A DNA stretch of 64,000 bases from Halopiger xanaduensis SH-6 (GTDB lineage: Archaea; Halobacteriota; Halobacteria; Halobacteriales; Natrialbaceae): positions 3,236,270-3,300,269 of the forward strand of contig NC_015666.1 of the NCBI RefSeq assembly GCF_000217715.1, given 5' to 3'. The notes under the pieces are model-generated. The model worked only from the letters and a program-made list of their open reading frames with translations, had not been told where the DNA came from and did not search any database. Below, one piece after another: positions 2,949 through 12,101 of the stretch (its first letter is position 1; each line of letters opens with the position of its first letter). A program made the position numbers and the translations under genes.

Positions 2949-5492
2949 GTGGCATCGTCATCGGACGTGCGAGCCGACGAGCCGCGGTGTCCGCTGTGCG
3001 GGCGTCCGCTTCCGGAAACGGTCGTCGCTGCCGAACCGGACGCCGACGAGGTGGACGCGAGCGCGGCGACGGATGGCGACACGTACTGCTCGAGCGGCTG
3101 TCGGGAGATCGATGTGGCGCTCGAGGCGCCCGCAGAGGCCGACGCCGGCGATGCAGTCCGTAGCGACGAGCGACACGGCGACGAGAGCGAGGCGCTCGAG
3201 AACGAAGACGACCTCGAGCGAACGTACTTCCGCGTCGACGGCATGCACTCGGCGACCTGCGAGTCGTTCCTCGAGTCGGTCGCCGAGAAGCGGGAGGGGG
3301 TCGCCGACGCCGCGGCGAGTTACGTCACCGAGGCCGTCCGGGTGGACTACGATCCCGATCGCATCTCCAAGTCGGACTTGCGAGGTGCGCTGAGTACGCT
3401 CGGCTACACGGCCTACCTCCGGGAGGAGGCGACGGCCGACGACGACGCGGGCGCCACCCGTCGCGCGCGAGAGATGAGCGGGCTGCGAAAGCGTCGCAGC
3501 GAGGACTTCCTCGAGATTCAGTACGTCGCCGGCATCGTCTTCGGCTCCTTCCTGTTGGTTCCCTACGCCGCCGTCTTCTACCCGATGTTCCTCGCAGCCT
3601 ACTCCGATTGGGGACCGCTGCGCTACTACGATACCGCGTTCACGGGTTTCGACAACCTCCTCTTCCTGCCGCTGTTTTCCGTCGTTACGGGCGTCGTCCT
3701 CTACCTGACCGGGCTCCCGCTGTTGCGCGGCGCGTACGTCAGTCTGAAACTGCGCCGACCGAACACGCAACTGCTCGCCGCGCTCACGATCGTCAGCGCG
3801 TACGTCTACGGAACCGCGTCTTTCTTCCTCGGCCGGACTGACCTCTACTACGACCTCACGATCGTCGTCGCCGCCCTCGTCATGGGTGCGATCTTCGCCG
3901 AGGCGACGGTCAAGCGTCGAGCGACTGAGCGGCTCACCGACCTCACCGTCTCGCAGGTCGATACGGCCCGCGTGCTCGAGTCCGACGGCGGAACGACCGA
4001 CGTTTCGGTCGCGGACCTCGAGCCCGACGACCGCGTGCTCGTCCGGGAGGGCGAGCGCGTGCCCGTCGACGGCGTACTGGTCGACGGCACCTGCACGGTC
4101 GACGAGGCGGTCGTCACCGGCGAGTCGCTCCCGGTCGCGAAGGAGTCGGGCGACGAGGTGATCGGCGGCTCGGTCGTCACCGACGGCGCGGCGGTCGTCG
4201 ACGTCGGCCCGGCGACGGAAAGCAGCATCGAGCACCTGACGGAGGTCGTCTGGAACCTCCAGAGCGCCGCCCACGGTGTGCAGCGCCACGCCGACGCGCT
4301 CGCGGTGCGGGTCGCACCGCTGGTCCTCGGCGCCGCGGTCGCCGTCGGCGCCGTACAGTTCCTCCAGATCGGCGACCCCGCGACCGCCGCACTGGCCGCG
4401 CTCCTGACGATCATGGTCGCGAGCCCGTGGGCGCTCGGCCTCGCGACGCCGGCCTCCGTCGCCGCCAACATCCGGGACGCGATGGAGCAGGGAATCGTCG
4501 TCTTCGATGAAACCGTCTTCGAGCGGCTCCGCGACGTCGACACCGTCGTTTTCGACAAAACCGGGACGCTCACGACCGGCGAGATGACGGTTCTCGAGGC
4601 CGACGCGCCCGACGACCTCCTGGCTGCCGCCGCGGCGCTCGAACGTCGAGCATCTCACCCGGCGGCGACGGCAATCGCGGCGGCGTTCGGTGACGCCGGC
4701 GGTTCCGATACTGACGGCGACGAGGCGGTTCGTCCCGACGGCGGTTCGAGCCTCTCCGTTCGGGACTTCGAGAACCACGGCACCGGCGTCTCCGGGCGTA
4801 TCGATGGCGATCGGCTACTCGTCGGCCATCCCGACCTCTTTCGGGAGCGCGGGTGGGAACTCGAGGACGATTTCGAGCGGCGACTCGAGGGCGCCCGCAG
4901 CGCCGGCAATCTGCCGATCGTCGTCGGGCGAAACGGCCGCGCGGACGGGCTCGTCGTGGTCGGCGACGAACCCAGGGACGACTGGGCGAAGACGGTCTCG
5001 AGCCTCCACGAGAACGGGATCGAGGTCGTCGTCCTGACGGGCGACGAGCGGGCGGCGACCGAGTTCTTCAGCGGTCACGACGCCGTCGACCGCGTGTTCG
5101 CGGGCGTCCCTCCTGAAGGGAAAACCGAAGCGGTCCGGCGCCTCGAGCGGGAGGGGTGCGTCGCGATGGTCGGCGACGGGACGAACGACGCGCCCGCGCT
5201 GGCCGAGGCCGACCTGGGTATCTCGCTCGGGAGCGGCACGGCGTTAGCCTCGGACGCGTCGGATCTCGCGATCGTCGAGGACGACCTGTCCGCGGTCGAA
5301 CGGGCCTTTCGGCTGGCCGCAGCGGCGCGTCGGCGCGTCAGGCGCAACCTCGCGCTGGCGCTCGTCTACAACGCGATCGCGATTCCGGTCGCCGCGCTCG
5401 GGTTGTTGAACCCGCTGTTCGCGACTGCTGCCGTCGCCGTGGGTGCGCTCTGTATCGGGGCGAACGTCTCGTGGCCCCTGCTCGAGGAGTGA
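2949..5492 (+). CDS. P1B-type heavy-metal ATPase with altered SPW membrane motif
   Basis: An 847-aa P-type ATPase. In order: a CPLCG..LP and CSSGC module (Cys14, 17, 47, 51) like the extra N-terminal metal-binding domain of CcoI/FixI copper ATPases; an HMA-like domain (about 92-160) whose motif reads GMHSATC, keeping one Cys (104); helices from about 190; TGES; the phosphorylation motif DKTGT (Asp536); SHP (His570) in the nucleotide domain; and GDGTND (742-747). The intramembrane motif, normally CPC, SPC or TPC before ALGLATP, is SPW (492-494). Catalysis therefore looks intact, but metal coordination in the membrane must differ. The start is GTG 2949; there is no ATG nearby. The transported ion is unknown; export of Cu or another metal is the family default. 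Confidence 0.9.
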   Translation: MASSSDVRADEPRCPLCGRPLPETVVAAEPDADEVDASAATDGDTYCSSGCREIDVALEAPAEADAGDAVRSDERHGDESEALENEDDLERTYFRVDGMHSATCESFLESVAEKREGVADAAASYVTEAVRVDYDPDRISKSDLRGALSTLGYTAYLREEATADDDAGATRRAREMSGLRKRRSEDFLEIQYVAGIVFGSFLLVPYAAVFYPMFLAAYSDWGPLRYYDTAFTGFDNLLFLPLFSVVTGVVLYLTGLPLLRGAYVSLKLRRPNTQLLAALTIVSAYVYGTASFFLGRTDLYYDLTIVVAALVMGAIFAEATVKRRATERLTDLTVSQVDTARVLESDGGTTDVSVADLEPDDRVLVREGERVPVDGVLVDGTCTVDEAVVTGESLPVAKESGDEVIGGSVVTDGAAVVDVGPATESSIEHLTEVVWNLQSAAHGVQRHADALAVRVAPLVLGAAVAVGAVQFLQIGDPATAALAALLTIMVASPWALGLATPASVAANIRDAMEQGIVVFDETVFERLRDVDTVVFDKTGTLTTGEMTVLEADAPDDLLAAAAALERRASHPAATAIAAAFGDAGGSDTDGDEAVRPDGGSSLSVRDFENHGTGVSGRIDGDRLLVGHPDLFRERGWELEDDFERRLEGARSAGNLPIVVGRNGRADGLVVVGDEPRDDWAKTVSSLHENGIEVVVLTGDERAATEFFSGHDAVDRVFAGVPPEGKTEAVRRLEREGCVAMVGDGTNDAPALAEADLGISLGSGTALASDASDLAIVEDDLSAVERAFRLAAAARRRVRRNLALALVYNAIAIPVAALGLLNPLFATAAVAVGALCIGANVSWPLLEE

Positions 5493-9607: not shown

Positions 9608-10273
9608 ATGCGATTCGTCGACGTTACCGTCGAACGAGCACCGTCGGAACAGTCTCCCCTGAATCGACGGCTCGCCGCCGACGACGAGGTCGTCCGCGAG
9701 GAACTGCTCAACTGGCGTATGAGTCGAAACGAGGTCCTCAACCAGCTTATTTTTGCGATCGGAAATCGGGACGCGTACGAGGCGGCGCTCGAGGACGTCG
9801 CCGAAATCGTCGCCTACGAGATTCGGGCGATCGACGAGGACCGATTTTACGTGTACCTTCAGGAGGAGCGAACGCAGGAGACCGTTTCGTGGTGGACCGT
9901 CTTTCTGGCTCACGACTTCATTCACGTGCCGCCGGTCGTCATCGAGGACGGGAGCAGTCGTCTCACGCTGCTCGGGGAGTTCGACGACCTCCGTACCGTC
10001 GTCGACGAACTGTCGGACGAAGTGACGATCGAGATCGAGGAGATCGGGGACTACCGCGGGCACGGCCACCGGCTCACGGGCCGATTGACGGCACGGCAGT
10101 ATCGAGCCGTCCGGATCGCACTCGAGCGCGGGTATTACGAAATCCCGCGTGAGACGTCGCTCGCGGCTATCGCCGCGGCGCTCGAGTGTACCGAAAGCAC
10201 TGCATCCGACATTCTTCGACGGGCGGAGCGGGAGCTAGTGCGGGCGATCGTTCCGTCGGTTCACCGCTGCTGA
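9608..10273 (+). CDS. HTH-10 (Bat-type) transcriptional regulator
   Basis: A 221-aa regulator of the haloarchaeal Bat/HTH-10 family. The N-terminal about 150 residues are a poorly conserved sensor-like alpha/beta domain. The C-terminal 55 residues carry the family HTH, beginning LTARQYRAVRIALERGYYEIP and continuing with LAAIAAALECTESTASDILRRAE. In this family the HTH binds promoter DNA while the N-terminal part responds to signals or partners. ATG 9608 is chosen over the in-frame start at 9581 because a TATA-like GGATTATTGG at about 9572-9581 would lie 27-36 nt upstream. The target genes are unknown. Confidence 0.88.
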   Translation: MRFVDVTVERAPSEQSPLNRRLAADDEVVREELLNWRMSRNEVLNQLIFAIGNRDAYEAALEDVAEIVAYEIRAIDEDRFYVYLQEERTQETVSWWTVFLAHDFIHVPPVVIEDGSSRLTLLGEFDDLRTVVDELSDEVTIEIEEIGDYRGHGHRLTGRLTARQYRAVRIALERGYYEIPRETSLAAIAAALECTESTASDILRRAERELVRAIVPSVHRC

Positions 10274-10303: not shown

Positions 10304-11047
10304 TCAGACTAGAACTGCAGTCACGATCACGTACGCGAAAATATTATTACACAGGTGCAAGAGCCAGGCGCCGGTCAGGTTGTCGAACCGGAGTCGGAGC
10401 ACCGTCGGGAAGACGCTCCACGCCGCGATGGCGGCGACGCCCGCCACACCGAGGGCGAACACGTGATAGCCGGCGAAGACGACGATCGATCCCGCGCTGG
10501 CGGTGAGCAGCGACCAGCCCCGTCCGAGGAGCGCGCCGACGAGCGCACCTCGGAACAGCAACTCTTCGACGAGCGGGGCGACGAGAACGACGCCGAACGC
10601 GACGCCGGCTAGCGTCGCGGGATCGCCGAGGTCGTAGGTGTAGAACGGGGTGAGTTCGAACCCGAACAGCCCCGCGACCCACTCCCCGACGAGAAACGCA
10701 CCGATACCGAGCGGAACACAGACCGCCGTCCAGCCCAGTTCGGCGCGGCTCGGTCGCTGCAGCGGGAACGCGGCCAGTCGCTCCGGCTCGTCGAAGCGCC
10801 GCCACAGGAGCGCGAGTGCCGCCGAGAGTCCGATTCCGACAGCGCCGTAGATCACTCCCGGCGGGGGCTCGAGTCCGGGCTCGCCGATCGTCGCGACGTA
10901 CCCGGTGATCAGTGCGCTCGTCACGACGAGCACCAGCGCCGTCGCACCGAGGATGAGCCACACCCGGTTGCCAAGAGTCGTCTCGTCCGTTTGCGCCGTC
11001 GAGTCGATGCGAGCGTCGGTCGACGGCCACCGCGTTCGTATTGGCAT
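10304..11047 (-). CDS. CPBP family intramembrane glutamic endopeptidase
   Basis: A 247-aa protein with about seven membrane helices and the CPBP/Abi (PF02517-type) motifs: APLVEELLFRG with the paired catalytic glutamates, GYHVFAL, and HLCNN near the C-terminus. Related proteases cleave CAAX-type or other membrane substrates. The substrate here is unknown. An upstream extension to 11254 is open but looks non-coding; ATG 11047 precedes a short hydrophilic leader and the first helix. It is divergent from the PhzF gene. Confidence 0.88.
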   Translation of the reverse strand: MPIRTRWPSTDARIDSTAQTDETTLGNRVWLILGATALVLVVTSALITGYVATIGEPGLEPPPGVIYGAVGIGLSAALALLWRRFDEPERLAAFPLQRPSRAELGWTAVCVPLGIGAFLVGEWVAGLFGFELTPFYTYDLGDPATLAGVAFGVVLVAPLVEELLFRGALVGALLGRGWSLLTASAGSIVVFAGYHVFALGVAGVAAIAAWSVFPTVLRLRFDNLTGAWLLHLCNNIFAYVIVTAVLV

Positions 11048-11195
11048 CGTAACATAATACGCCCGAGCCCCCGATGGGTCTTCGCGCTGTGCAGTTAGAC
11101 TATTGAAGTCCCTACCCGAACGCTCGAGCGGCAACCGCCCTCCCGTTCGAATCGCTGTCAGAGCATTCATACCCCGCTCGACCGACCGATGGCGT

Positions 11196-12101
11196 ATGGA
11201 GACGACGCGAATCGTGCAGGTCGACGCCTTCACCGACGAACCGCTTTCCGGCAACCCCGCCGGCGTCGTGCCGGACGCGGACGGGCTCTCGGACGACCAG
11301 ATGCAGTCGATCGCCGCCGAGATGGCCGTCAGCGAGACGGCCTTCCTGCGCTCGAGCGACGACCCCGAGGCGGACCGCCGCGTGAGCTACTTCACGCCCA
11401 CGCAGGAGGTCGACCTCTGCGGCCACGCGACGATAGGCTCTTTCGCCCACCTCCACGACGAAGGGCTCGAGCCCGGAACGACCGCTCTCGAGACGAACGT
11501 CGGCGTCCTCGAGATCGAGGTCGGCGAGGACGGCACGGTCTGGATGACCCAGGACGAGCCCCGGATTCGCGAGGTCGACGTCGGCTACGACCGCGTCGCC
11601 GACGCGCTCGGGGTGAGTCAGGCCGCGCTCGAGGGGGCCAGCGACGACATTCCGCTCGCCGTTTCCTCGACCGGACTGCCGTTTCTGATCGTTCCGATTA
11701 CCTACCTCTCGGATCTCGGCGACGCCGATCCGGACATGAACGCCGTCGAGGAACTCGCCGACTCGGTCGATGCGACCGGCATCTACCTCTTCACCTTCGA
11801 CGCGCTCGGCCGCGACTCGACGCTGCACGGGCGGATGTTCGCACCCGGTGCGGGCGTCCCCGAGGATCCCGTCACGGGAACCGCCAGCGGCGCCGTCGCC
11901 GCCTATCTCGACCGGTTCGGTGCGTTCGACGACGACTTCCCCGAGGAACTTCGCCTCGAGCAGGGTCACTACGTCGACCGGCCGGGACTGGTGCGCGTTC
12001 GTCTCGAGAACGGCGTCCGGGTCGGCGGCCGCGGCGTGACCGCGCTGGACGGGACGATCGCCGTTCCCGACGACGAGGAAGACGAGATCCTCGAGGCCTG
12101 A
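11196..12101 (+). CDS. PhzF family phenazine-biosynthesis-like isomerase
   Basis: A 301-aa protein with the two pseudo-repeated halves of the PhzF/diaminopimelate-epimerase fold. Visible motifs are VDAFTDEPLSGNPAGVV at the N-terminus, FTPTQEVDLCGHATIGSF, and DPVTGTASGAVAAYL in the second half, which together build the active-site cleft. Most PhzF relatives outside phenazine producers have no known substrate, and no phenazine genes are present here. The frame is open upstream to 11103, but ATG 11196 starts directly at the conserved METTRIVQVDAF. Confidence 0.9.
   Translation: METTRIVQVDAFTDEPLSGNPAGVVPDADGLSDDQMQSIAAEMAVSETAFLRSSDDPEADRRVSYFTPTQEVDLCGHATIGSFAHLHDEGLEPGTTALETNVGVLEIEVGEDGTVWMTQDEPRIREVDVGYDRVADALGVSQAALEGASDDIPLAVSSTGLPFLIVPITYLSDLGDADPDMNAVEELADSVDATGIYLFTFDALGRDSTLHGRMFAPGAGVPEDPVTGTASGAVAAYLDRFGAFDDDFPEELRLEQGHYVDRPGLVRVRLENGVRVGGRGVTALDGTIAVPDDEEDEILEA

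Follow-up and report, generated by a model that had tools for sequence, protein, structure and literature searches.

A clade of haloarchaeal P1B-type ATPases with tryptophan in place of the second cysteine of the membrane CPC motif

What a metal-transporting P-type ATPase may still do when a tryptophan occupies the place of a cysteine in its transmembrane metal site is the question raised by a gene of Halopiger xanaduensis SH-6, which lies in the 64,000-nucleotide stretch of DNA analyzed here as a whole (the window). Variation of the motif in helix M4 distinguishes the P1B classes, and a serine or threonine before its proline is also found in the SPC and TPC motifs. To our knowledge, the classes P1B-2 and P1B-4 to P1B-7 (CPC, SPC, TPC, CSC) all keep a cysteine after the proline, unlike the window protein and its closest relatives (xPW proteins, where x is a variable residue), which carry a tryptophan there. 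The M4 cysteines are held to be essential players in transport by P1B ATPases, and the xPW proteins thus offer a natural experiment on a P1B ATPase without its metal site. Literature searches gave no description of SPW or CPW in P1B ATPases, which does not prove their absence from the literature, and the xPW branch of the haloarchaea has apparently gone undescribed so far.

The window gene and its encoded protein

The gene (positions 2949..5492 of the window, on the + strand, as are all the features located below) has a GTG start and encodes a protein of 847 amino acids. This protein scores 418 bits against TIGR01525, the general heavy-metal model of NCBIfam (cut-off 346), and 363 bits against TIGR01511, the copper-translocating model, which is below the cut-off of 397, and it matches the Pfam families E1-E2_ATPase (PF00122), Hydrolase (PF00702) and HMA (PF00403). 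The motifs reported by the initial annotation were all recovered in the translation: SPW at residues 492-494 (4422..4430, codons AGC CCG TGG), TGES of the A domain at 390 (4116..4127), the phosphorylation motif DKTGT at 536 (4554..4568), SHP of the N domain at 569 (4653..4661) and the hinge motif GDGTND at 742 (5172..5189). The HMA domain (3228..3410; PF00403, 43.6 bits) contains GMHSATC at 98-104, with a single cysteine, C104, and S101 in place of the other.

An AlphaFold model of the protein (pLDDT 86.6, pTM 0.85) places helices at 179-333, 443-513 and 781-841, which correspond to the P1B helices, and the M4 helix (TM6) is predicted to be broken at 492-495, where copper pumps have CPC. The top match of VIA-align was LpCopA in its E2P state (4bbj; Z 29.1, rmsd 4.2 over 631 residues), further top structure matches being a zinc and a cadmium ATPase, and the sequence also matched 3j09 (E 2.5e-81). 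The fold is therefore like that of the CopA exporters (AfCopA, LpCopA, E. coli CopA, ATP7B), whereas the sulphur ligands of the copper path differ. A structure match was also found to KdpB (7nnl_B, Z 24.4), another P-type motor, but one that drives transport through a partner subunit, whereas no conserved partner gene was found next to xPW genes and the xPW proteins are P1B by sequence.

The TGE, DKTGT, TGD and GDGxND motifs and the fold place the protein in the P-type superfamily, and TIGR01525, the HMA domain, eight transmembrane helices with MA and MB, and the HP motif place it among the P1B ATPases. Of the features of the Cu(I) class P1B-1, it has the YN pair of M5, but neither CPC in M4, nor MxxSS in M6, nor a score at the TIGR01511 cut-off. 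The classes P1B-2, -4, -5, -6 and -7, with their cysteine after the proline of M4, do not accommodate any of 100 xPW proteins. The window protein is thus a P1B ATPase by fold and lineage, yet it lacks the M4 and M6 motifs by which the Cu(I) class is defined, which calls for caution with annotation pipelines that label xPW proteins as "heavy metal translocating" or "cation-translocating" ATPases.

Distribution and descent of the xPW proteins

According to the initial annotation, its reading would be refuted by SPW occurring in this genome only, or by resequencing that showed CPC or SPC. Haloarchaeal relatives with SPW, CPW, TPW or APW numbered about three dozen in a first scan of public genomes, which also gave relatives with CPC that share 41-51% identity. 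A nucleotide pattern, CCNTGG-N123-GAYAARACNGGNAC, was used to tie Pro-Trp to DKTGT at a fixed distance; it matched once in the window and not at all in 100 shuffles, and separated xPW from CPC kinds without error among the fetched loci. With this pattern, xPW was found in 127 of 392 haloarchaeal genomes (one order), of which 84 are among the 96 of the window's family, the Natrialbaceae, and 43 among the 296 from elsewhere. The genome scan covered the archaeal phylum; none of 124 genomes outside the haloarchaeal order contained xPW, and all seven matches among 148 genomes across the phylum fall inside that order. Matches of the pattern in 2.9 million viral contigs were due to chance, with no ATPase among them. 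The single-genome refutation thus fails. SPW is real, but it is one state of a wider motif in which only proline and tryptophan are invariant: 100 distinct xPW proteins comprise 70 SPW, 18 CPW, 6 TPW, 5 APW and 1 NPW.

The alignment of haloarchaeal P1B ATPases proposed at the outset placed SPW within an xPW clade. Exclusion of the trait columns left all 61 non-redundant xPW rows united in this clade (SH-aLRT 100, stem 0.34), which is nested inside the haloarchaeal CcoI/FixI-like CPC ATPases in a tree built without bacterial CcoI sequences. Within this clade residue 492 has changed to or from Cys at least six times, and Trp 494 never changes. The most divergent xPW protein (locus L155 of genome G010, from another family) has an end branch of 1.39 and an HMA motif, GMHSSISE, without cysteine.

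The nearest relatives in the tree, the haloarchaeal CPC ATPases of the CcoI/FixI kind (CopA2-type, P1B-1), share with the xPW proteins the same order of Cys-rich module, HMA, MA, MB, M1-M6, and A, P and N domains. CPC-type ATPases are also present in all 121 genomes sampled from the window's family, and the CPC paralogue encoded in the same genome as the window gene is 50% identical to it. On the other hand, xPW is absent from every sampled genome of two genera of this family (g20 and g23), and is therefore not indispensable.

The gene could be a functionless, decaying paralogue, which the loss of several ligands might resemble, or the product of a sequencing error. However, another species of the genus carries the same SPW at 92% protein identity, which rules out the error, the motif recurs in 127 genomes, and the motor is intact throughout. 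Moreover, the xPW genes of the two species of the genus give a dN/dS of 0.16, similar to the 0.17 of the CPC paralogue in this genome pair, and other close xPW pairs give 0.10-0.29, so that substitution patterns show the protein to be maintained by ordinary purifying selection. A functionless gene is thus very improbable.

The copper path and the catalytic core of the xPW clade

Set against 53 relatives of the CPC kind, the 100 distinct xPW proteins have Trp at residue 494 in 100/100 cases, where the relatives have Cys in 53/53, so that no xPW protein has a cysteine after the proline. The changes extend along the copper path. T273 (3765..3767) occupies the place of the entry-site methionine (M158 of AfCopA, M252 of E. 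coli CopA), which is found in 0% of xPW proteins vs 94% of CPC relatives. In M6 (TM8), V829 and G832-A833 (5433..5447) occupy the place of MxxSS: the methionine, equivalent to M711 of AfCopA, is present in 0/99 xPW vs 53/53 CPC proteins (0% vs 100%), and xPW has lost the SS pair that all CPC relatives share. In AfCopA, Cu(I) is proposed to move from M158 and the CPC cysteines to a site with M711, and mutating residues of CPC, YN and MxxSS impairs copper binding (PMC9433437).

Other elements of the path are kept. These are the acidic D302 of M2 (3852..3854; E287 of E. coli CopA), conserved in 99/99 xPW and 53/53 CPC proteins, the entry-region glutamate E318 (3900..3902; E205 of AfCopA, E303 of E. 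coli CopA) in 98/99 xPW proteins, D449 (Asp in 86/99), and Y807-N808 of M5 (TM7; 5367..5372), with Tyr in 96% and Asn in 99%. The motor is likewise complete: among 35 xPW members recovered independently of the DKTGT-based pattern, TGE, DKTGT, HP, TGD, GDG and ND are intact in 35/35. As judged from the alignment, the clade has thus been shown to combine a tryptophan at the second CPC cysteine and the loss of both path methionines (entry site and M6) and of the SS pair with a motor, acidic entry residues, a YN pair and N-terminal Cys modules that are largely kept.

The extra N-terminal module of copper-oxidase ATPases, CxxCG...CxxxC, had been described as retained. Its four cysteines are indeed there (CPLCG at 14 and CSSGC at 47, that is, C14-x2-C17 and C47-x3-C51; 2988..3101), and are kept in 92-95% of xPW proteins, but the CCxGC of the CPC relatives reads CSxGC in the window protein. 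The second residue of this motif, C48, is Cys in 96% of CPC vs 12% of xPW proteins, with Ser in 84% of the latter. The corresponding Pfam model, PF12156, gives no score for the window protein, 17.7 bits for a CPW relative and 20.9-25.4 bits for CPC relatives, all of them below the cut-off of 27. As for the HMA domain, C101 is found in 14% of xPW vs 100% of CPC proteins, and C104 in 94% of xPW, with the full CxxC kept in 12 of the 18 CPW proteins.

The xPW clade has also gained residues: Y192, F201, H442 and, in the A domain, C382 (4092..4094), a new cysteine eight residues before TGES that is invariant in xPW (99/99, vs 1/53 CPC). Within the membrane helices, the newly invariant residues are hydrophobic or aromatic, and no acidic residue or His has been acquired there that would define a new ion site. 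Residues covarying with the tryptophan, which the initial annotation had suggested looking for, are present at 829, 832, 833, 803 and 382, but they all changed with it on one stem branch and are thus group-specific, which does not amount to independent covariation. Within the clade, covariation of C492 with the HMA C101 was not significant. A change of W803 to Leu as compensation for W494 was rejected, as E. coli CopA has Gly at that place.

The initial proposal was that a Trp at the metal site argues for a different ion, a different coordination or the loss of transport. This proposal is supported, and is strengthened by the concurrent loss of the SS pair and of the methionines at the entry site and in M6, by the retention of the motor and the acidic residues, and by the ordinary purifying selection; among its three options the sequence does not decide. 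In CcoI, the C417A/C419A protein neither transports copper nor supports oxidase activity (PMC8475189), and the xPW proteins can therefore be regarded as natural versions of a transport-dead CcoI with a complete motor.

Gene neighbourhoods and possible functions

The CPC relatives adjoin a gene for a SafE-like protein in 26 of 42 loci, and heme-copper oxidase subunits I and II in 11 and 13 loci, respectively, which supports their CcoI-like label. In contrast, a SafE-like gene was never seen beside xPW genes in the neighbourhoods compared. Within the window's family, the neighbours of xPW are sulfatase-like genes, in 10 of 17 loci, or MATE genes, and copper or oxidase genes were absent beside chromosomal xPW in 16 of 17 loci. 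No conserved partner gene was found, the chromosomal neighbours being sulfatase-like, MATE and other unrelated genes. In the window itself, a MATE family exporter (1257-2864) lies directly upstream on the same strand with a gap of 84 bp, an order repeated in three other loci (L040, L045 and L063).

With these data, the window gene may tentatively be taken, at somewhat short of an even likelihood, as an active, duplicated and repurposed ATPase of the CcoI/FixI type that would not transport Cu(I) through the canonical sulphur path and that most likely pumps a different cation. The protein would hydrolyse ATP and cycle, its N-terminal Cys4 module and HMA domain would continue to respond to metal or redox state and so adjust the activity, and the canonical relay of sulphur ligands would no longer hand Cu(I) across the membrane. 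A different cation, harder or bulkier, could instead be pumped via a site formed by W494, Y807, N808 and the conserved acidic residues, with the Cu(I) work left to the CPC paralogues of the same genome. Such a new-substrate pump with a retained sensory N-terminus is the most economical reading, although a little less than probable: the absence of any newly acquired acidic or His ligand from the membrane helices, the full HMA CxxC of 12 of the 18 CPW proteins and the frequent copper-island setting of xPW genes outside the window's family, which points to copper physiology, all count against it. The clade also allows a well-defined examination of the way in which P-type pumps evolve their choice of substrate. 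That xPW constitutes a separate P1B-derived functional class outside transition-metal transport, with a sensing N-terminus and a non-metal or hard-cation substrate moving past the invariant membrane Trp, is a bolder and somewhat unlikely proposal.

The sulphur ligands of the copper path being gone (the M4 cysteines in 82% of the proteins), with nothing in the membrane clearly replacing them, xPW could also be a non-transporting regulator, which would keep the sensor and the conformational cycle but move no ion, reporting the copper or redox state or controlling another membrane protein. The well-kept N-terminal Cys4 and the new C382 near TGES fit such a role, as does the extra N-terminal site of CcoI, which mainly regulates the ATPase (PMC8475189). 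However, a complete phosphorylation cycle, with catalytic motifs intact throughout, exceeds the needs of a pure sensor, and a conserved partner gene is missing, so that a regulator appears unlikely.

Outside the window's family, xPW genes are often found in copper islands together with a CPH-type Cu ATPase, a multicopper oxidase and plastocyanin, and in one case with cox genes. These islands, and those CPW proteins that keep the whole HMA CxxC, speak most strongly for a further alternative: the protein would remain a Cu(I) handler but use fewer or other ligands, such as W494 in a cation-pi contact combined with Cys/Ser 492 and YN, and would work at low turnover in cuproenzyme loading. Cation-pi contacts between Trp and Cu(I) are known in CusF, a precedent for this idea, and the CPW proteins keep one M4 cysteine. 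On the other hand, 82% of xPW proteins have Ser, Thr, Ala or Asn at residue 492, the entry and M6 methionines are lost in all of them, copper and oxidase neighbours are rare in the window's family, and CcoI without the CPC cysteines is dead (PMC8475189), all of which makes such a handler quite unlikely.

Some of the copper-island copies are borne on plasmids, such as pNG600 of Haloarcula marismortui and pHAR02 of Halorubrum salinarum. A CPW site of 80 bases is identical in nine genomes (G018, G162, G202, G275, G314, G352, G096, G124 and G211), haloarchaea of several families, which suggests a recent transfer or spread of the copper-island segment. The public annotation of the xPW gene of pNG600 (locus L194, 10001-12496) begins at 10124, which is downstream of where the homologous match starts, so that the annotated protein seems to lack the N-terminal Cys4 module. 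Finally, a membrane protein without Pfam match and with the sequence CTCGCCGP adjoins the mobile xPW genes (10797-12008 in locus L061, and nine other loci). This protein of the plasmid islands (C2) was rejected as an xPW partner, as the window's family has no listed match and many genomes that lack xPW also have the protein. Its apparent signal peptide is directly followed by AHG, an arrangement known from histidine-first copper proteins.
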